Below are positions 1-14,034 of a stretch of DNA of 64,000 bases, piece after piece (position 1 is the first letter of the stretch; each line of letters begins with the position of its first letter). Source of the stretch: Deltaproteobacteria bacterium (GTDB taxonomy: Bacteria > Desulfobacterota > Binatia > UBA9968); assembly GCA_016874755.1 (NCBI GenBank), contig VGTH01000017.1:1-64000 (forward strand). Reading direction: 5' to 3'. Under the pieces are notes generated by a model. That model was not told the DNA's origin and did no database searches. It saw only the letters and a program-made list of their open reading frames with translations. Made by a program: the position numbers and the translations under genes.

Positions 1-473
1 CGATGAATCGCGCTTCAGTATCCTTCTCCAATTGGCTTATACGCAATGATATATTACTTTGATGCTCGGTGAGCGAGCTATATTTTTCGCGAAGCTCCGC
101 AACCAGGACATCGACTGCGGTCAACTGCGCCCCTAAAGTCTTCCGGCCGGCCTCGCTGCGCTGGCCAACATGGGCAACTGTCCGCTCAATGGATGCTTGC
201 TGAGCAGCAAGATATGCCTCTATCTCTGCCTGGCGTTGGGTCACATGAGCCAGTGCTTTCGCCTGCTGCTCCGCGAGGACGGTTTGTTCTAGGCGGCTCT
301 CGTGTGTAGTTGCTTCATCAACGATGAATCGCGCTTCAGTATCCTTCTCCAATTGGCTTATACGCAATGATATATTACTTTGATGCTCGGTGAGCGAGCT
401 ATATTTTTCGCGAAGCTCCGCAACCAGGACATCGACTGCGGTCAACTGTGCTTCTAAAGCCTTCCGGCCGGCC
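1..473. repeat. 321-bp-period direct repeat inside the coiled-coil coding region
   Basis: Bases 1-152 recur at 322-473 almost perfectly; only a few substitutions appear, near the right end of each copy. The 321-base offset equals 107 codons, so the duplication keeps frame in the minus-strand coding region. Copy 1 starts at the window edge, so more copies could lie outside. Confidence 0.9.
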
Positions 474-2023
474 ACCAAGCCTTGCGGCTGGTTCTCCAAG
501 TCAGGTAGCCTTCCGTGTAGGCTTTGTCTATGGAGCAGGCTGTCCACCGCCAAACGCGCGGCGTCCAGCGTCGGGGCTTCGAGCAAACTACCCTCGCCTA
601 TCATTCGCTTGCGGAGATCGACATCTCGAAAATCGACTGGCCCCAAGGCCATCGGTACGGCGAAAAACTTGGGATTGCAAGCCACCAGGTTGAAGCCTTG
701 ATAGTCTGTAGCAACGAGATACGGCTCTGAACTAGATTCTGGCGCGACGGCAGAAACATGCGCTGCCGAGCCGGCCAAACCCTCTTGGAGCTGGACGGGC
801 AGAGACGATTGCTTTTCGAAGACTAGAGTTTTTTTCCGAACTTCGTCGATGCTATCAGCAACAAAGAGAATGGGCGGCAACTCGCGCTCCCCTAAGCGTT
901 CAGAAAACAGTTCAAGGCGGCCGAGCTTCTTCGTGACTGCCAAAAACCGGTCGTCCGCCTTGACTAGATTGTAACAACCAAACTCCTCGATCAATTCGAT
1001 ATGCGGCACCGCAGTTTTCCGCTCGAACGCCAAAACCTTACTGCGAACCGCATCCAAGCTCTCTCCGATAAATATTATCGGGGCTAGATCCCGCTCACCA
1101 ACACATTCCACTAAGAGATTGATCGGCCCGAGTTGCTTGGCAGCGGCAAAGAAACGATCGTTAAGTTGAATAAGATTGAAACCATCCGTTGCTCCGACGA
1201 TCTGAGCCCGGGAGTTCTCCAGTTTGTCCGGCGAATCCACATGGCAAGGAATTTCAATGGGCCTTGAGTCAATCTCAACTCCAATCCATTGGGAACCTAA
1301 ACTCCGGATCGCCCACACCCCCTCCCAGCTCGACACCTCGCCAAACTCAACCGCGACGGCCTCCGTTACCCCGGGATGATAGTGCATCGCGCCCTTCGAC
1401 GATTCGACAAAGTCCTTGTTTAGATTGAGTGCCGCTAGGTGCTCTGCGGGGTCGACCTGCGTCTTTTTGAGCTCAAGATCATCTCCGCAAACGATTCCGC
1501 CGTCTCTCACTAACCGTTTTCCCTCCCTGATATCGGCTCGAACAGCTTCATACGCGTGCGACCCGTCGATATAAACGATGTCATAGCTCGAGCCCGGCAA
1601 AGCCGGTAGAATATCGCGCGCATCCCCCACGTGGTGATTCACCATGTGGGAAACGTTCGCCGCACGAATGTTATGAAGAAACAGGTTGAAGATCTTGCCG
1701 TCTCTGGCCGCCTGGTTCATCTTCCGATAGTGCGAGCCGGTCTCTATAGCTTCCTCGAAATACGGCTGCCATTTATCGACGCAGGTTACCGTCCCATCTC
1801 TCCCCAGCTTTTCCAAGGCCTTCGACCAGGTTATCGCCGAGGCACCTGCCCATGACCCAATCTCAAGAATTTTTATAGGCCCCATAGTTTTCAAGCGCGC
1901 TACCGTCCCCACGAGCGCTTCGAGATAGCCGTGCCGAACCGGAGGACTCTGCGTGGCGCGCAACACCGGACCAAAGTAGGGCTTTCCGGTTAGCAGCGCG
2001 TCAATCAGTTGATACTCTGACAT
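1..2023 (-). CDS. Class I methyltransferase fused to repeat modules and a coiled coil (partial, runs off left edge)
   Basis: The minus frame is open from an ATG at 2023 to the window edge, giving 674 residues with no stop. Residues 1-240 look like a class I SAM-dependent methyltransferase: glycine motif ILEIGSWAGAS at 52-62 and an acidic VYIDGSHAYEA strand at 150-160. Then come three diverged modules of 55-70 residues starting near 281, 350 and 443, each with a core like GFNLxxxxxRFFAVxxxLGP and followed in the first two by GERxLxPIxF. From about 500 the protein becomes a heptad-like coiled coil containing a 107-residue in-frame duplication (residues 518 and 625 start equivalent copies). It follows wzt on the same strand, so a role in O-antigen modification or chain-length control is inferred. 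I do not recognise the repeat module. No clear Shine-Dalgarno precedes the ATG. Confidence 0.8.
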   Translation of the reverse strand, partial: MSEYQLIDALLTGKPYFGPVLRATQSPPVRHGYLEALVGTVARLKTMGPIKILEIGSWAGASAITWSKALEKLGRDGTVTCVDKWQPYFEEAIETGSHYRKMNQAARDGKIFNLFLHNIRAANVSHMVNHHVGDARDILPALPGSSYDIVYIDGSHAYEAVRADIREGKRLVRDGGIVCGDDLELKKTQVDPAEHLAALNLNKDFVESSKGAMHYHPGVTEAVAVEFGEVSSWEGVWAIRSLGSQWIGVEIDSRPIEIPCHVDSPDKLENSRAQIVGATDGFNLIQLNDRFFAAAKQLGPINLLVECVGERDLAPIIFIGESLDAVRSKVLAFERKTAVPHIELIEEFGCYNLVKADDRFLAVTKKLGRLELFSERLGERELPPILFVADSIDEVRKKTLVFEKQSSLPVQLQEGLAGSAAHVSAVAPESSSEPYLVATDYQGFNLVACNPKFFAVPMALGPVDFRDVDLRKRMIGEGSLLEAPTLDAARLAVDSLLHRQSLHGRLPDLENQPQGLVAGRKALEAQLTAVDVLVAELREKYSSLTEHQSNISLRISQLEKDTEARFIVDEATTHESRLEQTVLAEQQAKALAHVTQRQAEIEAYLAAQQASIERTVAHVGQRSEAGRKTLGAQLTAVDVLVAELREKYSSLTEHQSNISLRISQLEKDTEARFI

Positions 2024-2081
2024 ATGTTCAGGCGAAAGAACTCGGACACTTGACAAAGAAAGCAACCATAAACCGCGCTCC

Positions 2082-3431
2082 CTATGTCAACACTTCAAAA
2101 TTTGGCGCAAGATCAAAAAGCCCATCAAAAGCTCTCTCGGTTTCCAGCAACACCACGCAATGGGCCACGGAACGCCGCACGTCCAGCACAGCGCCCCCTC
2201 TCGTTCCATCGACTTGAGCCACTCCAATGTCGAAAAAATAATCACTCGGATTGACACTCAGTGAAAACGAAAACTTGTAGACTTGCAACTGGCCCGCCGT
2301 TACCGACTGGAGTTTCTCCCCCATCTGATACGTATTGGTCCCGAATATCTCAACCCCTTCGAGAGTCTTAACCGCAAAACCCAACACGGGCGACCGAATG
2401 CTGCGATGAAATAGGACCTTAACGTAAAGATCAACTTTCGCGCGAAAACGAAGGATCGCGACATCTCGCTGCCCGTCAGACTCGATGACATAGTCAATAA
2501 TTTTCGCCTCACCGCTGCCAAAGCGCACCTCGTGCTTATTATAGCCTTGCCGCGTGTGACAAAGATCCTCCGGACTGGATGAGTCGAAAACATCTCCCAG
2601 CGTGGGAGCAACTTCCACGTTGCTCGGGATCGTCTCGGCCGATTGGGCATTGCGCAAAGCTCGCGATTTGGTCGAATCTTCAAACAGCAGATCATAGTAT
2701 CGATCGATAACATGTGCCGGTTCGCCGCTGGTAATCAGCTCTCCGCCGTCGAGCAGAATCGCTCTGCCGCAATAACTCGTTACGAGAGAGGAATTATGGG
2801 TAACGAAAATCACCGTTTTTGCTTCGGTCTGAAGATCTGAAAGTCGTTGAAAACACTTGTGTTGGAATTTGGCATCACCCACGGCCAGGGCCTCGTCAAT
2901 GATTATGACATCGGCACTGACGTGAACTGCGGCGGCGAAAGCCACGCGCAAAAACATACCGGATGAATAGGTTTTTATCGGCTGTTCAAAAAACTCTCCG
3001 ATATCCGCGAACTCAATGATCTCAGGCATTCGGTTCAGCATTTCATTATGCGATAGTCCCATGAGCGTACCGTTCAACAGCACGTTTTGTCGTCCCGTAA
3101 ACTCAGGGTTGAACCCGGCACCGAGCTCCAGAAGAGCGGAAACACGCCCATTCACCGTCACTGTGCCTGAAGTGGGCCGCAGTACGGAAGCCATGATCTG
3201 GAGCAGGGTCGATTTCCCGCATCCGTTACGTCCCAGGATCCCAAGCCCTTCGCCTTTTGCGATATCCAGACTAATGCCCTTCAGCGCCCAAAACTCTTTG
3301 TGGTAATTCTTGCGAAACGGATGAAGGGACTCCTTGAGACGCTCCGCTGGTGAGGCAAAAAGCCGGTATTTTTTTGTTACGTCTATGAGTGATACGGCGA
3401 TGTCCCGAGCCATATTCGCAGCATTCCTCAT
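2082..3431 (-). CDS. wzt: O-antigen ABC exporter ATP-binding protein with C-terminal carbohydrate-binding domain
   Basis: A 449-aa ATPase of the polysaccharide exporter (ABC-2) class. Walker A GRNGCGKST is at residues 67-75, the signature loop YSSGM near 155-159, Walker B DVIIIDE at 174-180, and the H-loop His in VTHN at 212. After the ATPase (about 250 residues) an extra C-terminal region of roughly 160 residues has the length and beta-rich look of the Wzt C-terminal domain, which in E. coli O8/O9a systems recognises the terminated glycan. This points to an O-antigen whose length is set by an end modification before export. The start codon overlaps the stop of the permease gene as ATGA (3428-3431), so translation is probably coupled. 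Confidence 0.93.
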   Translation of the reverse strand: MRNAANMARDIAVSLIDVTKKYRLFASPAERLKESLHPFRKNYHKEFWALKGISLDIAKGEGLGILGRNGCGKSTLLQIMASVLRPTSGTVTVNGRVSALLELGAGFNPEFTGRQNVLLNGTLMGLSHNEMLNRMPEIIEFADIGEFFEQPIKTYSSGMFLRVAFAAAVHVSADVIIIDEALAVGDAKFQHKCFQRLSDLQTEAKTVIFVTHNSSLVTSYCGRAILLDGGELITSGEPAHVIDRYYDLLFEDSTKSRALRNAQSAETIPSNVEVAPTLGDVFDSSSPEDLCHTRQGYNKHEVRFGSGEAKIIDYVIESDGQRDVAILRFRAKVDLYVKVLFHRSIRSPVLGFAVKTLEGVEIFGTNTYQMGEKLQSVTAGQLQVYKFSFSLSVNPSDYFFDIGVAQVDGTRGGAVLDVRRSVAHCVVLLETERAFDGLFDLAPNFEVLT

Positions 3432-4228
3432 AAAACATCGGCAAACTCGGCCTTGAGGCGCCTAAAGACGTAAACCCCCAGCAGCAAAAAGGACATGGCG
3501 ATCATCCAAAAACGCAACGCCGCACTCCAATCATTCCAGAAAGGCTCTCCGATGAGAAGCGAGTTGCGGTACCCCTGCACGATATAGTAAGCCGGGTTGT
3601 AATCGGTTATCCAGTTGTACCGGGTGGGAAGCATATCCTTCATCCAGATGATTGGGGTAATCCAAAACCACAGATTGAGAATCACCAAAAGCCCCTGGCT
3701 CAGATCACGATGAAACACCTGAATCGAACTTACCAGCCACGACAGACCAAGAACAAAAACCCCAAGGGCCACATAGTAGTATGGCAATTGCAATAGATAC
3801 AGGGTAGGTCGATGGCCATGGCTCCAAGTCACGATACAGAGGATAAGAAACAGCACAACGTGAGTGAATGTTTCGGAGAGCCAGTTGACAATCGGTAACA
3901 CTTCCGTGGGAAAAGTCGTCTTTTTCACGAGATGTGAGTTGCCCGTCACAGCTGATACACTTGCCAGTAGAGTGTTGTTGAACAGAAGCCACGGGATGAG
4001 ACCGCCAAGAAGGTAAAGAACAAACGGCATACCAGAAGGTCCGACCGCTTTGAAGCCGACGGAAAAGACAAACCAATAGATCAAGACTGTGACGATCGGA
4101 TGAAAAATCGCCCACAATGGCCCTCCGATGGTCCCAATATAACGGGCTTCCAGATCGCGTTTTGACATAGCCCAAATCATCTCGCGATGTTTGTAAAGCG
4201 TCCCTAAAAAATCGGCTAGACGAGACAC
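3428..4228 (-). CDS. wzm: O-antigen ABC exporter permease
   Basis: A 266-aa integral membrane protein of the ABC-2 / Wzm family with about six hydrophobic segments. The amphipathic N-terminus (KHREMIWAMSKRDLEARY) and the following GPLWAIFHPI stretch are typical of this family, in which the N-terminal interface helix precedes TM1. It would form the channel moving undecaprenyl-linked polysaccharide across the inner membrane with the downstream ATPase. It overlaps that gene by four bases. The upstream neighbour is a Nudix gene 65 bp away. Confidence 0.93.
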   Translation of the reverse strand: MSRLADFLGTLYKHREMIWAMSKRDLEARYIGTIGGPLWAIFHPIVTVLIYWFVFSVGFKAVGPSGMPFVLYLLGGLIPWLLFNNTLLASVSAVTGNSHLVKKTTFPTEVLPIVNWLSETFTHVVLFLILCIVTWSHGHRPTLYLLQLPYYYVALGVFVLGLSWLVSSIQVFHRDLSQGLLVILNLWFWITPIIWMKDMLPTRYNWITDYNPAYYIVQGYRNSLLIGEPFWNDWSAALRFWMIAMSFLLLGVYVFRRLKAEFADVL

Positions 4229-4293: not shown

Positions 4294-4854
4294 TTAGCGC
4301 GTGCTGAATTTAAAGTAAGCAGTCACCGTACAAGGGTCCTCTATCTTTGAACGACTAATCATATTCTTGACTTCCTCGGCGTCAAAAACGCGAAATTCCA
4401 CGTGACCGGTTTCCGCCGGGAAGTACGGTCGAATCGACCGGCATCGCAAAGCTACATAGAGATGCACGCGCGCAGCCAATAAGCCGGCCTCCGGCGTCAC
4501 CAAGCCAAGCGATCTCAGTTGCTCACGATCGCAACTCAAGCCAGTCTCTTCCTCCAGTTCGCGCAAGGCCGAGCCACTTTGATCGTTTTCACCGACTTCG
4601 ATAAAGCCGCGCGGAATCTCCCAAGAATCGCTCTGAACCGCATGGCGGTAAACCCGCAGCAGGCCGATCTTGCCGTCAACAACCGGCAGCACCGCGACTC
4701 CGGTCACAAAATTCTCCGCCGCTACTTTGGGAGCGACGACAAGATAGTCGTTTACGGCAGCATGGCCGGGAGTCTGGACCGCGTCAAAATAAACGTGAAA
4801 TCGGCTGTTCTCGCACACCAGCCGCCGTTTGGTTCTCTCGCCATTGACCATCAC
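4294..4854 (-). CDS. Nudix hydrolase
   Basis: A 186-aa protein with the layout of ADP-ribose/NDP-sugar pyrophosphatases. The Nudix box is visible as GFIEVGE followed by RELEEETGL. There are eight residues between the first Glu and the REL core rather than the consensus seven, so the loop appears to carry one extra residue; the nucleotide reading confirms it. The family hydrolyses nucleoside diphosphates linked to another moiety using Mg2+ bound by the REXXEE glutamates. Its place between exporter and sugar genes suggests a nucleotide-sugar or NDP house-cleaning role, but the substrate cannot be read from sequence. Confidence 0.85.
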   Translation of the reverse strand: MMVNGERTKRRLVCENSRFHVYFDAVQTPGHAAVNDYLVVAPKVAAENFVTGVAVLPVVDGKIGLLRVYRHAVQSDSWEIPRGFIEVGENDQSGSALRELEEETGLSCDREQLRSLGLVTPEAGLLAARVHLYVALRCRSIRPYFPAETGHVEFRVFDAEEVKNMISRSKIEDPCTVTAYFKFSTR

Positions 4855-4870
4855 GGCTCTCGTTTTCCGT

Positions 4871-6400
4871 TCATACCAGCGCTGGCTCCGGTGCCGCCGC
4901 GAGGATTTTTCTTTCCAGTTTGTGCGCCGTCATTTCTCGGATATGGCGCAGCGTGGCGGCGCCGAACTTGGCACCGACCATCTGCAGATACTTGGGATTT
5001 TTGAAGTAGGCGTCAAACGCCTGATCGCGGAAGCGCAGCACCTCAGCGCCGGTAAGATACTTGGTCGGCAGCGGCAAGGTGTCGACGGCGTGCTGCGAGT
5101 AGCCGGACCATTGGTCTGGCAGCGGCCAGCCCTCTTTCGCAGCCGTTTGGTAGAGCTGCGAGCCGGGATAGGCCATGGCGGAATAAAAATTGGCGAACTC
5201 GCAATTAAGCTCAACCGCCATGTCGAGCGTCGCCTGCATGCTGTCATAATCGTCCTCAGGCAGGCCAAAAATATAATTGCCGATGACGTTGATGCCCGCG
5301 TTCCGGACCTTATCAATGGTATTAAAAATCAATTCCTGGCCAAACCCCTTATCGACGTCGTCGCGCACCCGCTCGCTGGCGGCCTCAATCCCGAAGGCAA
5401 GCCAGTTGACGCCGGCCCGCTTCAACTTATCGAGCATGCCGTCTTTGACGGTATCGACGCGAGCATAGGCCCAGATATTGAGATCCAAACCGCGCTCGAC
5501 GATCGCATCGCAGATGCCCAGCACATGGCGCGCGTTCAGGACAAACATTTCGTCGGCGATCTTGATGTTGCGCACGCCGTAGTCGCGCGCCAGTTTTTCA
5601 ATCTGCGCGACAATCGTTTGCGGCTTCCAGAAGCGGTAGCTATTGACGCTCTCATTCCAGCCCGCCTCTTTTTCACCGCTCTTAAACGGCGCTTGAATGC
5701 AGCAGAAGCTGCAGCGAAACGGACAGCCAAAGGTTGTGTAAAAAGAAGCGTAGGGCTGGCGTGGCACATCTCCGAAGCAGTGCCAGTTATGCGCCCGATA
5801 CTTTTTCATCGGCAGAAGATCCCAGGCCATCTCCGGCATCTCGCTGTCGGGGTCTTTGACCAGCGGCGCCGCACCGTTTTGCACGATGCGCCCCTCGGCG
5901 CGGTAACAAAGGCCGCGCACGCGCCCCAACTCGACGGGCGTGGCAGACAACGCTTGCAGCAGTTCCAGCAACGTATACGGACCTTCGCCGTTGCAGGTGA
6001 AGTCCGCGTCGGTCTCCTTGAGGGTTTGTTCCGGCAGCGCCGCCACATGGCCGCCGACTAGAATGACTTTCTGGTCGGGAGCGAGCTGTTTGATGGCGCT
6101 ACAGATCGCCGCCGAAGCCGTCATGTTCTGGGTCGACGCCGAGGGTTGGTGGCCGTAGACGATGATGGCGACCAGTCGCGGCGCCGCAGCGCTGACAGAC
6201 CGAGCGGTTTCTTCGTAGCTGAACTCTTCGGCTTCCGAGTCGAGGATATCCACGCCAAAGCCGCGCCGGCGAATGAACGTGGCCATCAAGCCGGCCCAGA
6301 CCGGCGACTCGACGGCCGCGAGATTGTCGCTCAACGACTGGTAGATTTGCTTGCGGCTGCCCGGGTGTATCAGCAAGAGATCTAGCTTTCGATGGGTCAT
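4871..6400 (-). CDS. B12-binding-domain radical SAM protein
   Basis: About 509 aa from the ATG at 6400 (MTHRKLDLLLIHPG); an in-frame GTG at 6421 is the other start. Residues 1-150 resemble a cobalamin-binding Rossmann fold (VGGHVAALPE near its end) but lack the classical DxHxxG motif. A radical SAM domain follows with the CxxxCxxC cluster motif in GCPFRCSFCC. Relatives include C-methyltransferases, cyclases and anaerobic oxidoreductases. It follows the ColD-like gene after a few bases in one run with the deoxysugar genes, so modification of a sugar carbon or of the lipid or glycan terminus is plausible. Methyl transfer to an unactivated carbon is one option, not proven here. Confidence 0.85.
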   Translation of the reverse strand: MTHRKLDLLLIHPGSRKQIYQSLSDNLAAVESPVWAGLMATFIRRRGFGVDILDSEAEEFSYEETARSVSAAAPRLVAIIVYGHQPSASTQNMTASAAICSAIKQLAPDQKVILVGGHVAALPEQTLKETDADFTCNGEGPYTLLELLQALSATPVELGRVRGLCYRAEGRIVQNGAAPLVKDPDSEMPEMAWDLLPMKKYRAHNWHCFGDVPRQPYASFYTTFGCPFRCSFCCIQAPFKSGEKEAGWNESVNSYRFWKPQTIVAQIEKLARDYGVRNIKIADEMFVLNARHVLGICDAIVERGLDLNIWAYARVDTVKDGMLDKLKRAGVNWLAFGIEAASERVRDDVDKGFGQELIFNTIDKVRNAGINVIGNYIFGLPEDDYDSMQATLDMAVELNCEFANFYSAMAYPGSQLYQTAAKEGWPLPDQWSGYSQHAVDTLPLPTKYLTGAEVLRFRDQAFDAYFKNPKYLQMVGAKFGAATLRHIREMTAHKLERKILAAAPEPALV

Positions 6401-6426
6401 AGGATTGGTCCGCTCACGCACCCGCT

Positions 6427-7629
6427 TTATAGCTCTCGGTCCTCCGGCACGGCGTTCAACAAACTCGTCAGCTTGAGAATTTTCTCCCGCTCGAGGGTCG
6501 GGTAGTTGCCGATATAGTAGCCATAGAAATGCACATGGTCGACTTTGGGATACTTCGAGTATTCCTGGTCGCCCAAGCGCTTTCGCAAATAGGGCTGGCG
6601 CAGCTGATTGCCGCCGCCGGAAGCGCCGCGGCGAAACTCAACACCGTGTTGGCGCAGCATCTTCTCGACGTTATCGCGGAACCGCGGATTGGCGCGGTTC
6701 AAAACCAATGTAAAAGCGTAGTTGCAGCTGCCCTCGGTGGCAAAATCCGTTTGGTACTTCTCGGGGTTGAGGGTTTCGAGAAACAAATTGAGATTGACCG
6801 TTCGCGCTTGGTTGTTTTCGTCGAGCCGCTTCAGCTGCGACCGGCCCAGCACCGCGTTGATCTCGGTGCTGCGCACGTTGTACGCCGGGAAGGCAAAAAT
6901 GAAATCGGGATTGAGATCGCCGTGCTGGCTCGCATAAGCCTGCTTGATTTCCGCCGACTCGGCTTCGCGCACCATGCCGTGCGAGCGCAGCATGCGCAGG
7001 ACCTGATAAAGGTCGCCATCGTTGGTCGAGATCACCCCGCCTTCGATGGTGCTCATGTGGTGCGCGTAGTAGAAAGAAAAATTCGCCATGAGCCCGAAGG
7101 TACCGAGCTTGCGGCCGTTGAACGTCGCACCGTGGGACTCGCACACGTCCTCGATCAAAGGGATTTTTCGCGCCGCCAATTCCCGCAAAAGTTTTTCGTC
7201 GAGGCCGTTGTAGCCAAGGATATGGGTCAAGAAAACCGCCCTCGTGCGCGGCGTGATTTTTTCCAACACCTGCGCCGTGTCCATGCCCAGGGAGCGCCGA
7301 TCGATATCGACAAATACCGGCTCCAGACCGCACTGCAACACCGAGGCGATATCCGACACCCAGGTGAGCGTCGGCACAATAACCTCGCCCGGCCCGGCGG
7401 TTTCGCGCAGCGCCGCCATGGTGAGAAGATTGGCCGACGAGCCCGAATTGACAAAAACGCTGTGCTTAACGCCAAGCCATTCGGACCACTCCTTCTCAAA
7501 CATTCTGACCTGGCTCGACTGCGTCAAAATTGGCGGCTCTTCCTGACGCATGAAATCGATCACCGCCTGGAAGTCCTCGGCGACGATGTTGTTCTGCATC
7601 AACGGCCAGTTGAGATTTTCAGCATTCAT
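6427..7629 (-). CDS. ColD/RfbH-like PLP-dependent sugar 3-dehydratase (DegT family)
   Basis: A 400-aa member of the DegT/DnrJ/EryC1/StrS fold. At the position where aminotransferases carry the PLP lysine (SFYPTKN pattern) this protein reads SFYYAHHMSTIEGG, placing His at the lysine site. That is the hallmark of ColD (GDP-4-keto-6-deoxymannose 3-dehydratase, colitose pathway) and RfbH/E1, which remove the C3 hydroxyl instead of aminating. No four-cysteine iron-sulfur pattern is seen and the length is near ColD, so a ColD-type enzyme using glutamate as amino donor is favoured over an RfbH type. The start ATG at 7629 lies 5 bp after the E1 beta stop. Substrate, GDP-hexose or GDP-heptose, is inferred from neighbours. 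Confidence 0.88.
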   Translation of the reverse strand: MNAENLNWPLMQNNIVAEDFQAVIDFMRQEEPPILTQSSQVRMFEKEWSEWLGVKHSVFVNSGSSANLLTMAALRETAGPGEVIVPTLTWVSDIASVLQCGLEPVFVDIDRRSLGMDTAQVLEKITPRTRAVFLTHILGYNGLDEKLLRELAARKIPLIEDVCESHGATFNGRKLGTFGLMANFSFYYAHHMSTIEGGVISTNDGDLYQVLRMLRSHGMVREAESAEIKQAYASQHGDLNPDFIFAFPAYNVRSTEINAVLGRSQLKRLDENNQARTVNLNLFLETLNPEKYQTDFATEGSCNYAFTLVLNRANPRFRDNVEKMLRQHGVEFRRGASGGGNQLRQPYLRKRLGDQEYSKYPKVDHVHFYGYYIGNYPTLEREKILKLTSLLNAVPEDREL

Positions 7630-7634
7630 ACAAA

Positions 7635-8687
7635 CTAGAACGGTCCCTTGAACTCGATTTCACGCAGATCGGCGCGCTCATCGGACAACCAATGATTCGC
7701 CTTGCCGGTCACGAGATCGCGCACCGCGGCGGCGATGGTCCGGCCGTTGGGATAGTAAGCATCTTCGAGCGTCGGCGCCGGCGGGCAGGTCACCGGCGCA
7801 AAACCCAGCCGTTTTACCCGCACCGCGCGCTCGTGCTGCACCTGCTCAATGACGGCAGACACAATTTCGGCGCCAGCGCCGCAGCTAGTCCAACCGTTGT
7901 CGACGACACACAAACGGCCGGTCTTACGCACCGAGTTGGCGATCGTATCGATATCGAGCGGTTGCAGCCAAATCGGATCGATCACCTCGGCGCTAATGCC
8001 CACTGCTTCGAGGTAATGGCGCGCGCGCAAACACTCCAGCTGCATGTAGGAAATCCCAACAAGAGTGACGTCCGAACCCGTCATCGCGATGCGCGCTTTC
8101 CCGGGTGCAACCGCATAAAGAGGTTCTGGCACTGGCCCTTTTTGAAAGTGCAAAATCCGGTGTTCGACGTAAATCACCGGGTCGTTGTCGCGGATGGCGT
8201 GAATCAAACAACCTTTGGCATCGTAGGGCGTGGTCGGCGCAACGACTTTCAGGCCCGGGATGTTCATAAAAAACGAATAGAGCCCCTGCGAATGTTGCGC
8301 TCCTTGCCCCCAACTCTTACCGATCATCGCGCGCACGACGATCGGCACCTGCACCTGGCCGCCGTACATGTAGCGGCTCTTCGCGGCGATGTTCACCAAC
8401 TGATTCATCGCCAGCATGAGAAAGTCCATGCGAATGTGGACGTGAATCGGCCGTAGGCCGCCGAACGCCAAGCCAATCGCCACGCCGGTCATCGCGTCTT
8501 CGGAAAGCGGCGTGCCGAAGACACGTTCGGCCCCATACTTCTCCAGCAGCCCGCGGGTGGTTCCCTGGATCGCTTTCGGATCGTCCACGTCCAAGCCAAA
8601 AATCAACACCGACGGATCGCGCGCCATCTCTTGATCCGTCCCTTCGCGCAGCGCCTCCACGTAAGAAAGTATGCGTTCTTGCGTCAC
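7635..8687 (-). CDS. TPP-dependent dehydrogenase E1 component, beta subunit-like (transketolase C-terminal half)
   Basis: A 350-aa beta subunit of the pyruvate / 2-oxo-acid dehydrogenase E1 type, with a transketolase pyrimidine-binding domain first (DVDDPKAIQGTTRGL, FGTPLSEDAMTGVAIGLA) and a transketolase C-terminal domain after residue 200. It begins with GTG directly after the TAG of the alpha gene, with no intervening base. No E2 or E3 gene is nearby; instead it sits between deoxysugar genes. Ordinary catabolic use is therefore less likely than transfer of a TPP-bound acyl group to a keto-sugar, the chemistry known from YerE for yersiniose A. That role is inference. Confidence 0.88.
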   Translation of the reverse strand: MTQERILSYVEALREGTDQEMARDPSVLIFGLDVDDPKAIQGTTRGLLEKYGAERVFGTPLSEDAMTGVAIGLAFGGLRPIHVHIRMDFLMLAMNQLVNIAAKSRYMYGGQVQVPIVVRAMIGKSWGQGAQHSQGLYSFFMNIPGLKVVAPTTPYDAKGCLIHAIRDNDPVIYVEHRILHFQKGPVPEPLYAVAPGKARIAMTGSDVTLVGISYMQLECLRARHYLEAVGISAEVIDPIWLQPLDIDTIANSVRKTGRLCVVDNGWTSCGAGAEIVSAVIEQVQHERAVRVKRLGFAPVTCPPAPTLEDAYYPNGRTIAAAVRDLVTGKANHWLSDERADLREIEFKGPF

Positions 8688-9632
8688 CTAGAGCTCCACT
8701 ACGTCGGTATACAGTTCCGTCACTTCGGGAAACGGGCTAGTTTCGGCGAACTCGAAAGCCTCTTCGATCTCGGCTTCGACTTCGGCCTCGATGCGCGCGC
8801 GCAACGCCTTGTCGACCCGCGCGGCCATCGTCTTCACCGGATCGCTGTCGAGCCACGGCTCCGCTTCGGCGCGCATGCGATAGCCCAACTGATAGTCTTC
8901 GCCGGGACCGACATGCTCTTTCCAGCGATAAGCGAAGCACTCGAAGAAAAACGGCCCGGGCTTGCCGGCGCGCAGCTGTGCCACCGCCTCGTGCACGCGT
9001 TCGTAAACACGCAGCGCATCGTTATTTTCAATGACCTCCGCCGGCATGCCGTAGGTACGCGCCTTCTCGGCGATATTGGCGAGCTTCTGGCGGCGCGACT
9101 GATGAGTGTGGATGGCGTAGAAGTTATTCTCGCAGATAAAAATAATCGGCACTCCCTTCAACGCCGCGAAGTTCATGCTTTCGTGAAACACGCCTTCATC
9201 GACGGCGCCGTCGCCGAAAAAGCTGGCAACCACTTGTTGGCTACCGCGCAGCTTGGCGGCATAGGCATAACCGACCGCGTTGGGAATGGTCGTGCCGACC
9301 ACCGCGGATGCACCCATGGCGCCGGCGCCGAGATCGATCAGATGCATCGAACCGCCTTTGCCTTTCGCACAACCGGTGGCCTTACCGTACAATTCGGCGA
9401 TCATCTTGCGCAGATCGCCGCCCTTGGCAAGGTAGAGCGCATGGCTGCGGTAGGTGCCGAAGGCGATGTCGTTGGGGCCGAGCGCTTCACACACACCGAC
9501 CGATGCGGCTTCCTGACCGATGGAAAGATGCACCGGGCTCTTAATCTTATCGGTTGGATAGGCCCGGGCCACTTCCTCCTCTACCCTGCGAATGCGGTAG
9601 AGAGACCTATAAAACCGCTCGTGCATCGCCAC
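8688..9632 (-). CDS. TPP-dependent dehydrogenase E1 component, alpha subunit-like
   Basis: A 314-aa alpha subunit. The TPP-binding motif begins GDGAVDEGVFHES and closes with ENN about 30 residues later. HLSIGQEAASVGVCEAL near residue 35 and GKGGSMHL near 92 match E1 alpha proteins. It pairs with the beta gene that abuts its stop. The 5' end overlaps the upstream epimerase by 26 bp; an internal ATG two codons later (MHERFYRS) is equally possible. The gene lies in the middle of a GDP-sugar operon without lipoyl-carrier or dihydrolipoyl dehydrogenase partners, which suggests use in building a branched sugar. Confidence 0.88.
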   Translation of the reverse strand: MAMHERFYRSLYRIRRVEEEVARAYPTDKIKSPVHLSIGQEAASVGVCEALGPNDIAFGTYRSHALYLAKGGDLRKMIAELYGKATGCAKGKGGSMHLIDLGAGAMGASAVVGTTIPNAVGYAYAAKLRGSQQVVASFFGDGAVDEGVFHESMNFAALKGVPIIFICENNFYAIHTHQSRRQKLANIAEKARTYGMPAEVIENNDALRVYERVHEAVAQLRAGKPGPFFFECFAYRWKEHVGPGEDYQLGYRMRAEAEPWLDSDPVKTMAARVDKALRARIEAEVEAEIEEAFEFAETSPFPEVTELYTDVVEL

Positions 9633-10569
9633 CTCCTGCTACACTCGCTAGCTGCTGCAGATACCATTGGTAGGTCGCGCGCAAACCTTCGCGCATCGTC
9701 GTCCGCGCTTGCCAACCGAGCTCTCGCAGCCGGTTAGAATCTAGCAACTTTGCCGGCATGCCGTCGGGCTTGCTGGTATCGAAAACCAATGTACCACGGT
9801 AGCCGACCACTTGGGCGATGGTTTCGGCCAGCTCGCGTATCGACCAATCCTGCCCAACACCGAGATTGATGATTTCGCCGCCGTCGAAGCGGTCCATCAA
9901 AAAAACACAAGCGTCCGCCAAATCGGCTGCATACATGAACTCTCGCCGCGGTGTGCCTGTGCCCCAAATGACGACCTCAGGAGCACCGAGTAGCCGAGCT
10001 TCGTGGAAACGCCGGATCAACGCGCCGACGACGTGGGAATCGGCCTCGCTAAAATCATCCCCGGGTCCATAAATGTTGGCTGGAATCGCGCTGATGAAGT
10101 TGAGCCGATACTGTTGCCGGTACGCTTGGCACAAACCGAGTCCGGCCAATTTCGCCGTCGCGTAAGCTTCATTGGTCGGCTCCAATTTACCGGTCATCAA
10201 AGCATCCACGCGCATCGGTTGCGGGCAAAGCTTCGGATAGGCGCAGGAGCTACCGAGATAGAGCAGCTTGTGGACACCGTGCAACCGCGCGCTTTCGATG
10301 ACGTGACACACCACCAACAAATTATCGAGCATCAACTCAGCCGGAAACTTCTGGTTGGCTGCAATGCCACCGGCCCTACCACCGATCAAGAAAACGTATT
10401 GCGGCCTGACTCGGGCAAAAAATTCGTCCACCCGGGCAGCGTCGGTCAAAGGCGGCAAGCCGCGCTCGTCGATGACACTCTTAAAGCCGGCGGCGGCAAG
10501 CTGCCGGCGGAGCGCATCGCCGACCAATCCGTGATGATCGGCGATCAAGATTTTGCCATGGGTTTCCAT
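9607..10569 (-). CDS. GDP-L-fucose synthase / ColC-like epimerase-reductase
   Basis: A 320-aa extended SDR matching the WcaG/Fcl family rather than generic epimerases. It has LYLGSSCAYPK (catalytic Ser and the Cys used in epimerisation), YATAK (Tyr and Lys), ANIYGPGDDF, and SHVVGALIRRF with the second epimerisation residue, His. Known members epimerise and reduce GDP-4-keto-6-deoxymannose to GDP-fucose; ColC, a relative, acts on the 3,6-dideoxy intermediate to give GDP-colitose. Having a ColD-like gene in the same run makes a ColC-like or heptose-version role attractive. No Gmd-type 4,6-dehydratase is in the window. Confidence 0.87.
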   Translation of the reverse strand: METHGKILIADHHGLVGDALRRQLAAAGFKSVIDERGLPPLTDAARVDEFFARVRPQYVFLIGGRAGGIAANQKFPAELMLDNLLVVCHVIESARLHGVHKLLYLGSSCAYPKLCPQPMRVDALMTGKLEPTNEAYATAKLAGLGLCQAYRQQYRLNFISAIPANIYGPGDDFSEADSHVVGALIRRFHEARLLGAPEVVIWGTGTPRREFMYAADLADACVFLMDRFDGGEIINLGVGQDWSIRELAETIAQVVGYRGTLVFDTSKPDGMPAKLLDSNRLRELGWQARTTMREGLRATYQWYLQQLASVAGGGDARAVL

Positions 10570-10587
10570 TGGGTCTGCGGCTTACCG

Positions 10588-11664
10588 CTAGCCTAACACG
10601 GGCTCAACGCATTCGTCGATTTCGCCGAGAAAATTATATTGCTGCGAAGCGCGCAATTTGTCTTCCACCGAATAATCCCGCTCAGGCTCGAAAAAAATAA
10701 TTTGGCTGCCGGAGAATTCGAAATGGAACGGCACGTGAATAAATTTTTTAAGCGCGTCACGGACACGACGCTGCGCGCTCGGCGGCACGTAAAGCAATAA
10801 GAATCCGCCGCCCCCGGCGCCCAACAGCTTGCCGCCCAGCGCGCCATGATTGAGGGCGTGAGAGTAGAGCTCATCGACATGGGAATTGGAGACCTTGGCA
10901 CTCAAATCGCGCTTGACCTGCCAGCCCTCGTGCAGCAGCTTGCCGAAGTCGTTGATGTTGTTTCCTTTGCTCAGGATGGCAATGCCCTCTTCGACCAAAT
11001 GCTTCATGATGCGCAACTGGCTCTTCTTCGCCTCGACGTCAGTCACGTAGGTCTCGGCGATATTCGACGCGGTGCGTTCGATGCCGGTGTAGAACAGCAT
11101 CAAATGATTGTTCAACTCGCGCATGCGCTCCGCCGACACCGTCACCGGGCGCACGGTGATCTCGCCATTTTGCGCGAAGCTCACGTGATTCAAACCGCCA
11201 TGCGCCGCCAGCACCTGGTCCTGCGAGCCCACGGTTTCCTTGATCTTGTCTTGCTCGATTTCTATCCCTTCGAGAGCCAGTTGATGCTTGCTCGGCATCT
11301 GGCCTTTGAGCGCGTAGAGCGCGTGCAGCAAGCCGACGGTAAATGACGAGCTCGATCCCATGCCGCTGCGCGCCGGCAAGTCGCCGTCATGATGAATCTC
11401 CAGACCGCGATCGATGCCGACGTGGCGCAGCACTTCGCGCACTGCCGGGTGCTCGATCTCATCGGCGGTCTGGCAACTTTCGATCTGCGAATAAACGATG
11501 CGAATGCGGTGTTTAAAAAACGGCGGCAGATACCGGCAGGTCAAGTAACAATACTTATCGATGCTGGCGCCCAGCACGGCGCCGCCGTGCTCGTGGTACC
11601 ACACCGGATAGTCGGTGCCACCGCCGAAAAACGAGATGCGAAAGGGTGTCCGGCTAATGATCAT
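10588..11664 (-). CDS. hddA: D-glycero-alpha-D-manno-heptose-7-phosphate kinase
   Basis: A 358-aa GHMP kinase. Motif 1 RTPFRISFFGGGTDYP opens the protein, the ATP loop is PARSGMGSSSSFTVGLL near residues 98-114, and motif 3 is GGKLLGAGGGGFLL near 275. This arrangement is typical of HddA, which phosphorylates D-glycero-alpha-D-manno-heptose 7-phosphate at C1. Overlap of 11 bp with gmhB upstream and the neighbouring hddC support the assignment: kinase, phosphatase and GDP-transferase form the known GDP-D-glycero-alpha-D-manno-heptose route. The isomerase GmhA is not in the window. Confidence 0.92.
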   Translation of the reverse strand: MIISRTPFRISFFGGGTDYPVWYHEHGGAVLGASIDKYCYLTCRYLPPFFKHRIRIVYSQIESCQTADEIEHPAVREVLRHVGIDRGLEIHHDGDLPARSGMGSSSSFTVGLLHALYALKGQMPSKHQLALEGIEIEQDKIKETVGSQDQVLAAHGGLNHVSFAQNGEITVRPVTVSAERMRELNNHLMLFYTGIERTASNIAETYVTDVEAKKSQLRIMKHLVEEGIAILSKGNNINDFGKLLHEGWQVKRDLSAKVSNSHVDELYSHALNHGALGGKLLGAGGGGFLLLYVPPSAQRRVRDALKKFIHVPFHFEFSGSQIIFFEPERDYSVEDKLRASQQYNFLGEIDECVEPVLG

Positions 11665-12226
11665 GGATCCGCTCTCCTCCTCCGCCCATCGATCTGCCGA
11701 CGATCGCCGCCGCCTCAGCTAAATCCTCTACCACGTGGTCAACGACAAGGCGGCTCTGCGCCGCCACTTCGGCGCCGTAGCCAGTGCGCACGAGAAACGT
11801 CTCGGCACCGACCCGGCGGCCCATCTCAACATCGCTGGCTTTGTCACCAATGACGATAGTCTGGGCCAAATCGAAACTCAATTCGCGCGCTGCCTGCTCG
11901 ATCATCCCGGTTTCGGGCTTGCGGCACAAGCAACGATCGTCCGGCACATGTGGACAAAAATAGATCGCGTCAATGGCGACCGCCTCTGCGTCGAGCATTT
12001 CCCGCAATCGTGCGTGAATCGCCGCCAAACGCGCCTCATCGAAATAGCCGCGCCCGACCGCCGATTGATTGGTCGCGATCACCAGTCCTAACCCGAGCGA
12101 TTGCAAATGACGCAACCCGCGGGCCGCTCCTGCAAGCAATTGCACCTGATCGGGAGCGGAAAGATAGTTTTTTTCCTCTATGATTGTTCCGTCGCGGTCG
12201 AGAACCACAAAGCGCCGTTTGCTCAT
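11654..12226 (-). CDS. gmhB: D-glycero-D-manno-heptose 1,7-bisphosphate 7-phosphatase
   Basis: A 190-aa HAD phosphatase. The nucleophile motif is LDRDGT (residues 8-13), followed by ATNQS and the GDKASDVEMGR acid motif. A zinc loop CPHVPDDRCLC (C-x-H-x5-C-x-C) is the structural signature of GmhB and HisB-N. It removes the 7-phosphate from heptose 1,7-bisphosphate. Its start overlaps the hddC stop as ATGA, and its 3' end overlaps hddA. Confidence 0.93.
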   Translation of the reverse strand: MSKRRFVVLDRDGTIIEEKNYLSAPDQVQLLAGAARGLRHLQSLGLGLVIATNQSAVGRGYFDEARLAAIHARLREMLDAEAVAIDAIYFCPHVPDDRCLCRKPETGMIEQAARELSFDLAQTIVIGDKASDVEMGRRVGAETFLVRTGYGAEVAAQSRLVVDHVVEDLAEAAAIVGRSMGGGGERIHDH

Positions 12227-12954
12227 GCATGGCTCTTTGCGGCAAAAAAGGCTTCCGCCAAAGCGAAATCTTCCGGCGTGCCGATGTCCAGAAATCGCCC
12301 CTGGGTAACAAACCCCATGAGCCCCTGCCCAACCAGTTTCGGGAAAAAATCATACTCCAAAGAAACCATTTTGTCCAGCGGGACCATCTCTAGCACGGCG
12401 CGGCGCAAAATATAGACGCCCGCGTTGATTGAGCCAGGCCCCATGTTCGCGCTTTTTTCGCAAAACTGCCGGACGCGCGTTTCAGCATCAATCAACACTG
12501 AACCGTAACGGCTCGCGTTGCCAACCTCGGTCAGCAACAGACTCGCCACCGGCTGACCCTCGCAGTACCAATGCCAATACGCCTGCAAGTCCGCGTCGCA
12601 ATAGGAATCGCCGTTGAGCGCAATGACCGGGTCCGACGTCAATAACGGCAGCGCAAAGCGCAAAGCCCCCGCGGTTCCCAAGGCCTGCGGTTCGCGCGCA
12701 TAAAACAGTTTGAGTCCCGCGTACTGTGCGCCGAAAGCCGCTTCGATTTGCTCGCCAAGATAACCCGTGCACAGCACCACCGAGCGGCAGCCCGCCGTAG
12801 AAAGTTGCTCCAGGAGATAGGCCAAAAACGGCTTGCCGTTGACCTGGGCCATCACCTTGGGCCGATCCGCCACCACCGAGCGCAAGCGCGTGCCCAAGCC
12901 GCCGGCGAGGATCGCCGCGGTTACTTGGGAAAGATCGGTTGCTGGCGCCATCAC
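12223..12954 (-). CDS. hddC: D-glycero-alpha-D-manno-heptose 1-phosphate guanylyltransferase
   Basis: A 243-aa nucleotidyltransferase with the sugar-phosphate NTP-transferase signature AAILAGGLGTRLRSV near residue 14 and the metal-binding ALNGDSYCD motif near 118. On its own it could use several sugar 1-phosphates; adjacency to gmhB and hddA makes GDP-heptose formation most likely. Start: ATG at 12954, with ATG also at the second codon. Upstream, 141 bp separate it from the epimerase gene and no further ORF is apparent. Confidence 0.9.
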   Translation of the reverse strand: MMAPATDLSQVTAAILAGGLGTRLRSVVADRPKVMAQVNGKPFLAYLLEQLSTAGCRSVVLCTGYLGEQIEAAFGAQYAGLKLFYAREPQALGTAGALRFALPLLTSDPVIALNGDSYCDADLQAYWHWYCEGQPVASLLLTEVGNASRYGSVLIDAETRVRQFCEKSANMGPGSINAGVYILRRAVLEMVPLDKMVSLEYDFFPKLVGQGLMGFVTQGRFLDIGTPEDFALAEAFFAAKSHA

Positions 12955-13095
12955 TGGGAAGCAGCTCCGCCGTCAAACCACACTGCGCAACGAGCAGCAG
13001 AAACTCAAGCCTTGAGGCCAAGAGAAAATAACGCGGGTGTGCGAGCGAGAAGTGAAATCACGGTTGGCATCGCTGGCGAATAGTCGGCAAAGTCT

Positions 13096-14034
13096 TCAGA
13101 TATTTTTAAACTCCGAGCGGCCCATCATGCGATAGCCCTTGAGCAACTCGACAATCCCTTGATCCAACGATCGTTTGGCTTCGAAACCGGCTTCGCGCAG
13201 CCGCTGGTTCGACACTATATAGTTGCGCTTGTCGGGGTCCGAGCCCACTTCGGAAAAATGAATATAGAAATTAGGCACATGCTTCTTGATGGTCAGCGCC
13301 AACTCCTCTTTGGAGAGATTGGCCGCGTCAAGACCGACGTTGTAGGGACGGCCCTCCATTTTTTTCGAGTTCTCGATGGCGTACGCGAAACAATCCGCTA
13401 CGTCGCGGATGTGGATGTAGTTCCGCTTGAAGTCCTTTTCAAAAATGACGATGTAGCCGTCGGTCACCGCCGTGTAAGTAAAATGGTTGACCAACAAATC
13501 GAGCCGCATGCGCGGCGACAAGCCGAATACGGTGGCCAATCTTAAAGTCACCGTGTTGGGACTCTCCAACAGTAGCTTTTCCGCATCGCTCTTGGTCCGA
13601 CCGTACAGCGAAATCGGCTCCAGCGGCGTGTCTTCCGTGCAATAAACATCGCCGGTTTGGGTGCCATAACCGCTGTTGGTGGTTGGGTAGACTACCAGCT
13701 GGCTCGGCGAGCGCAGCTTGTTGATCATGCGGACCGCATCTAAATTTACCGAGGTAGCAAGCAAGGGATCGCGGTCGCAAGCCGGGGCACCGACAATGGC
13801 CGCCAACGGAATAATCACATCGGCATTTTTCACCAAGCGTGAGATTAGCTTCTCATCGCGCACGTCGCCGTTGACAAAATCGAAATTGGGGTTGGCGCAA
13901 AAGTGAAATAGCCCATGCTGGCCGTATATCAAGTTGTCGAGCACGGTGACATCGTAAGGTCCGCTCAACAATCGCTCGGTCAGGATCGAACCGAGATAGC
14001 CGGCACCGCCGGTGATAAGCACGCGTAAGCTCAC
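13096..14034 (-). CDS. NAD(P)-dependent epimerase/dehydratase (extended SDR)
   Basis: A 312-aa extended short-chain dehydrogenase. The Rossmann loop is TGGAGYLGS at residues 8-16. The active-site triad is visible as TTNSGYG and YGRTK. It lacks the SELYG-like sequences of GDP-mannose 4,6-dehydratase, so I do not assign it as Gmd. Starting with GTG at 14034, it is the first recognisable gene of the polysaccharide run and likely modifies a nucleotide-linked sugar such as GDP-heptose. The exact reaction (epimerisation or dehydration) cannot be told. Confidence 0.87.
   Translation of the reverse strand: MSLRVLITGGAGYLGSILTERLLSGPYDVTVLDNLIYGQHGLFHFCANPNFDFVNGDVRDEKLISRLVKNADVIIPLAAIVGAPACDRDPLLATSVNLDAVRMINKLRSPSQLVVYPTTNSGYGTQTGDVYCTEDTPLEPISLYGRTKSDAEKLLLESPNTVTLRLATVFGLSPRMRLDLLVNHFTYTAVTDGYIVIFEKDFKRNYIHIRDVADCFAYAIENSKKMEGRPYNVGLDAANLSKEELALTIKKHVPNFYIHFSEVGSDPDKRNYIVSNQRLREAGFEAKRSLDQGIVELLKGYRMMGRSEFKNI

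Follow-up and report, generated by a model that had tools for sequence, protein, structure and literature searches.

A small and seemingly undescribed accessory domain on the polymer-acting enzymes of polysaccharide clusters

Analysis of the window, a stretch of 64,000 nucleotides from a Deltaproteobacteria bacterium (contig VGTH01000017.1), revealed a module of ~60 residues that is present in three copies in the protein encoded at its left edge. The module is a genuine and seemingly undescribed accessory domain, carried by polymer-acting enzymes of polysaccharide clusters; its family is associated with polysaccharide assembly and, at several loci, also with export by ABC transporters. It may represent a small glycan-binding domain, similar to a carbohydrate-binding module (CBM), that tethers these enzymes to the cluster's own polysaccharide, a function which we infer and for which the case appears evenly balanced.

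The left-edge protein and its surroundings

The leftmost gene of the window lies on the minus strand in an open reading frame (2..2065) that remains open to the contig start, with the ATG of the sequence MSEYQ at position 2023. Base 1 of the window is also base 1 of its contig (C17 of the window genome, G000), and the C-terminus of the protein is cut at this point. The translation of 688 residues contains a Methyltransf_24 domain (residues 67-196; 1478..1867, minus strand; Pfam E 1.4e-22) with the SAM motif LEIGSWAG, followed by the three module copies at 1007..1201, 803..997, and 512..724 (all minus strand). The module cores, GFNLIQLNDRFFA, CYNLVKADDRFLA, and GFNLVACNPKFFA, begin at residues 295, 364, and 457 of this translation, which correspond to residues 281, 350, and 443 when counted from the MSEYQ methionine. 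The preliminary description had placed three diverged copies at the latter positions, and both the positions and the relationship are confirmed. Indeed, the pairwise scores among the copies (157, 71, and 43) exceed the shuffled maxima of 38-40, and a profile made from other genomes only, to which the window contributed nothing, detects each of them, with scores of 25.5, 30.0, and 33.0 bits, while the best of 1000 shuffles reaches 3.5 bits. Hence, the resemblance is not due to chance. Copies 1 and 2 form the closest pair, while copy 3 contains a small insertion.

The modules had also been described as lying between a methyltransferase and a coiled coil. The first part of this claim stands on the N-terminal side; the stretch on the C-terminal side is long, helical-looking, and nearly devoid of proline and glycine, but its heptad signal is weak, so that a coiled coil is no more than likely. 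This helical, probably coiled-coil tail is built from units of 107 residues, the first of which (149..469, minus strand) begins to repeat at residue 640 with a spacing of 321 bases; the second (2..148, minus strand) is truncated by the contig start. At a shift of 321, 151 of 160 bases are identical, the first 127 of them exactly, and the repeat is plain on direct comparison, though Tandem Repeats Finder reported no array at the left edge. The 321-base repeat (window 1-469) coincides with the contig start; it probably broke the assembly, and the number of tail units may vary between strains.

A possible continuation of the gene was found in a genome of the window's class that belongs to another family (G433). 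The last 123 bases of its contig C298 (L072 4202-4324) share 98.4% identity with window positions 191-313 within the tail unit; read in the direction of the gene, these bases come first. No other copy of this end was found in G000. If the gene has two units, C298 resumes ~8 bases past the point where the window contig stops. The first 4.2 kb of the window (-31.9) and C298 (-28.8) have similar tetranucleotide scores. Stretches sampled from G000 scored between 26 and 122, a range that includes neither value, and those sampled from G433 between -91 and -33, a range at whose edge both values lie. It is fairly probable that C298 is a misbinned continuation of the window gene, and possible that its end represents a transferred homologue. 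The reading frame on C298 terminates in a basic amphipathic helix (muH 0.60), and the contig also encodes a GT1-type protein with one module.

Beside the methyltransferase gene, the window encodes a Wzt and Wzm pair (2082-4228), as is the case for terminators of the WbdD type. Wzt (2082..3431, minus strand) consists of an ABC ATPase and the glycan-reading Wzt_C domain, and Wzm (3428..4228, minus strand) is an ABC2_membrane permease, all recognised by Pfam; the glycan-reading domain that had been ascribed to Wzt is thus borne out. The module profile finds no copy in this Wzt. The methyltransferase-Wzt-Wzm stretch (window 1-4200) has a G+C content of 0.50-0.54, lower than that of the sampled rest of the genome, and a differing tetranucleotide make-up, as if it had been acquired. 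It is followed by a sugar-precursor set (4294-14034) that comprises an HddA-like kinase, a GmhB-like phosphatase, an HddC-like nucleotidyltransferase, a split pyruvate-dehydrogenase-E1-like TPP pair, an RfbH-like aminotransferase, a GDP-fucose-synthase-like epimerase, and a B12-radical-SAM enzyme. Much of this set recurs on Azospirillum plasmids. Since all matches fall below equivalog cut-offs, the sugar that it produces is not named here.

Distribution and predicted fold of the module

The window's own module region retrieved no relative when used as a query in the family search, and profiles were needed. The first relatives were three Azospirillum plasmid proteins, and profile searches then added further genomes. 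The module does occur in other polysaccharide loci: an iterated profile over the fetched loci and the window identified 55 copies in 30 ORFs, with one to four copies per protein. Within a single phylum, from which all whole-genome counts derive, carriers were found in 5 of 395 genomes of a phylum-wide sample, in 6 of 148 of the window's class, and in 6 of 63 of the class of G243. A scan of genome contigs with module alignment A6 yielded the G243 genome and, beyond it, a single false positive, the sugar ABC substrate-binding protein of L023, which was rejected as its hairpin merely resembles the core by chance. No module was found in viral contigs or in the phage collection, and on plasmids it was found in Azospirillum only (weak matches in Rhizobium, at E 9, were disregarded).

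The carriers are diverse. Methyltransf_24 enzymes contain three or four copies in L061-L064, one copy together with TPRs in L068, and one in Azospirillum argentinense; these relatives stop soon after the last copy or run into TPRs, and possess no coiled coil. A Methyltransf_11 enzyme, B12-radical-SAM and SPASM-radical-SAM enzymes, and GT2 and GT1 glycosyltransferases also carry the module, among them a fusion of a GT2 enzyme with an HD domain and two modules (L064 1783-3960). Sulfotransferases represent a further group; in one type, found in Azospirillum (L004 8418-11012; L005 8427-11045), two modules connect the enzyme to an APS kinase, and the sulfotransferase-like N-terminal part was recognised by eye. 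In the Wzt proteins of L061 and L062, the module lies between the ATPase and the glycan-binding domain (ABC_tran-module-Wzt_C); the Wzt carrier gene of L063 is cut by a contig edge and was recognised by its similarity to the window Wzt. Finally, two polytopic membrane proteins, which by our own reading look like GT-C-type glycosyltransferases, have the module after their last membrane span.

In six loci (the window, L061, L062, L063, L066, and L071), the Wzt gene adjoins a carrier or is one itself. Among the neighbours in several carrier loci is the set of genes seen in the window as well, comprising GHMP kinase, nucleotidyltransferase, DegT aminotransferase, TPP-enzyme pair, epimerases, and B12-radical-SAM enzyme; none of the 20 recognised sugar-precursor or NUDIX genes of the carrier loci contains the module. 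Up to three or four different proteins per cluster carry it in L061-L064. The sulfotransferase carrier of L073 is flanked by genes for a prepilin peptidase and a tRNA synthetase, and therefore not every carrier sits in a glycan cluster. The modules are so short that the branch supports of their tree serve as a rough guide only; in this tree, the methyltransferase copies of L061-L063 group by position, first with first, second with second, and third with third, so that these duplications are older than the split of the genomes concerned. Copies 1 and 2 of the window and the last three copies of L064, in turn, look like later duplications.

The preliminary description knew no name for the module, and our searches agree, as its sequence matches neither a curated family nor a solved structure. 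Comparison of the window protein with Pfam, NCBIfam, PHROGs, and PDB sequences returned no significant match on the module (PHROGs was scanned with this protein only), nor did 46 copies scanned singly against Pfam and NCBIfam or a 46-row profile compared with PDB sequences. The PDB profile matches to KimA, AF_2094, and a sugar-binding protein, at E 0.16 or worse, look like chance hairpins and were rejected. A literature search, by motif letters or by gene context, found no description of such a module. In approximate form, its consensus reads P-x-L-[VI]-E-x-Y-x-G-[YF]-N-[IL]-[VI]-x-Y-x-x-[KR]-[FY]-Y-A-[IV]-P-Q-x-x-G-x-x-D-L, after which come a stretch that varies and a final helix. Conservation falls mostly on hydrophobic or aromatic residues and on Asn, Gly, and Asp, with the Asn and the Gly being the most conserved.

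AlphaFold confidently predicts an autonomously folding domain: for copy 3, modelled with 11 further copies as input, taken from the window and from loci L021/L022, the pLDDT is 92.4 and the order of elements is beta-beta-beta, helix, beta, helix. With this model, Foldseek found no match in the PDB at E 0.001, and the best match by VIA-align, the MMO inhibitory subunit (Z 4.3 over 51 residues at 2.5 Å), is not convincing. Fold matches to MutL, the flavivirus E protein, and a propeller were weak and were set aside, and the viral fold search likewise produced weak matches only, none of them convincing. A model of the three copies together is of low confidence (mean 57), and it repeats the same element order three times without a readable inter-module arrangement.

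What the module may recognise

If the module binds the polysaccharide of its cluster, it would hold polymer-acting enzymes on the chain, in the manner of a small CBM. The three copies of the window protein would then keep the nascent chain beside the methyltransferase, which probably caps or decorates it before export by Wzt/Wzm, and the helical repeats might act as a spacer or ruler. Glycan binding fits better than catalysis, since polymer-acting enzymes and exporters carry the module, precursor enzymes do not, and the copies are arranged in tandem. CBMs often occur in several copies per protein, and the module, as is characteristic of CBMs, is an accessory domain on carbohydrate-active enzymes. 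Its placement in Wzt, between the ATPase and the glycan-reading Wzt_C, also argues for glycan reading, and its presence in one protein only in several genomes suits a non-protein ligand. The confidently predicted autonomous fold and the six loci in which Wzt adjoins or is a carrier agree with this reading; the L073 carrier, with its unrelated neighbours, does not speak for it. PDB sequence and fold searches gave no sequence match and no convincing fold match to known CBMs. For the two membrane carriers, a crude hydropathy scan did not settle the membrane side of the modules; if the module end is extracytoplasmic, this would favour a ligand that occurs on both sides of the membrane, for example the glycan. 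More tentatively, the module may serve as a glycan-recognition address label in ABC-transporter clusters, where elongating, methylating, sulfating, and radical-SAM enzymes and the export ATPase would all read the same chain, thereby coordinating assembly with export.

The occurrence of the module in up to three or four proteins of one cluster (L061-L064), exporter ATPase included, and in a sulfotransferase fused to an APS kinase, would also agree with a protein-protein docking domain that gathers cluster enzymes and the exporter ATPase into a membrane-associated assembly line. We regard this as less likely, as six genomes (G000, G021, G022, G024, G222, and G433) hold the module in a single protein, where docking would need a module-free partner; for the same reason, module-module contacts between proteins cannot be a general rule. 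Less likely still is that the module has no specific ligand and lends spacing or stability to large multi-domain enzymes, among which recombination would have spread it. The varying copy number and neighbours of the module agree with such a role, and its conserved hydrophobic or aromatic positions, Asn, Gly, and Asp could be explained by structure alone; however, the restriction to polymer-acting enzymes and exporters, together with near-invariant polar positions, demands more than a spacer. Should the module indeed read the chain, it would physically connect polymerisation with decoration and export, a connection that is otherwise inferred case by case, and would offer a sequence handle to find polymer-acting enzymes in unannotated clusters. 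Furthermore, it represents a second accessory domain, besides Wzt_C, on some Wzt proteins, which is relevant to the way in which ABC exporters select finished chains.

Chain terminators and other known systems

The preliminary description had likened the window protein to WbdD-like chain terminators that set O-antigen length. This likeness holds for the architecture, namely a methyltransferase, an extra domain, and a helical stretch encoded beside Wzt/Wzm, but it leaves the module unexplained, because the module is also found in Wzt, glycosyltransferases, sulfotransferases, and radical-SAM enzymes. That the window protein is such a terminator, with the module as part of the terminator apparatus, falls somewhat short of an even prospect, and it would be compatible with glycan binding by the module. 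The combination of a methyltransferase and a long helical tail, encoded beside wzt/wzm and a Wzt_C domain, is consistent with it, as is the helix at the end of the probable continuation contig C298, since terminators have a C-terminal amphipathic helix (PMC11231755). On the other hand, the module also occurs outside terminators, among the related methyltransferases with modules those of L061-L063 have no helical tail and that of L068 has TPRs, and a PDB sequence search with the window protein returned no WbdD entry. By analogy with WbdD (PMC3482155) and ORF6 of the K. pneumoniae O7 locus (PMC11231755), the window methyltransferase, given its position beside Wzt/Wzm, is plausibly a chain-capping or decorating enzyme whose product is read by Wzt. 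A terminator role is plausible but unproven, and it is not what defines the module.

Like WbdD of E. coli O9a and O8, the window protein combines a methyltransferase, a further region, and a helical tail, and is encoded beside a Wzt/Wzm pair in which Wzt_C reads the finished chain. WbdD of the O8 type is a methyltransferase without a kinase, while the O9a type has a kinase domain (PMC3482155). In contrast to WbdD, the window methyltransferase matches Methyltransf_24/O-methyltransferases and, with no WbdD hit, belongs to a different family by sequence, no kinase family was found in it by Pfam or NCBIfam scans, and three unnamed modules are present instead. ORF6 of K. pneumoniae O7, in the order methyltransferase, kinase, CBM-like domain, and coiled coil (PMC11231755), shares with the window protein an N-terminal methyltransferase followed by unannotated domain(s), one of them CBM-like in ORF6, and then a coiled coil, a probable one in the window protein. 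It is set apart, by its description, by a ~223-residue kinase, an immunoglobulin-like CBM, and C-terminal GT2 modules, where the window protein has three ~60-residue beta3-alpha-beta-alpha modules. Wzt_C (PF14524) is a glycan-reading accessory domain of the same clusters and, in L061 and L062, resides on the same polypeptide as the module, which is inserted before it; however, it is a family of about 140 residues whose sequence is unrelated to the module. With CBMs, finally, the module shares the character of a small, roving, often tandem accessory domain on polysaccharide-acting enzymes.
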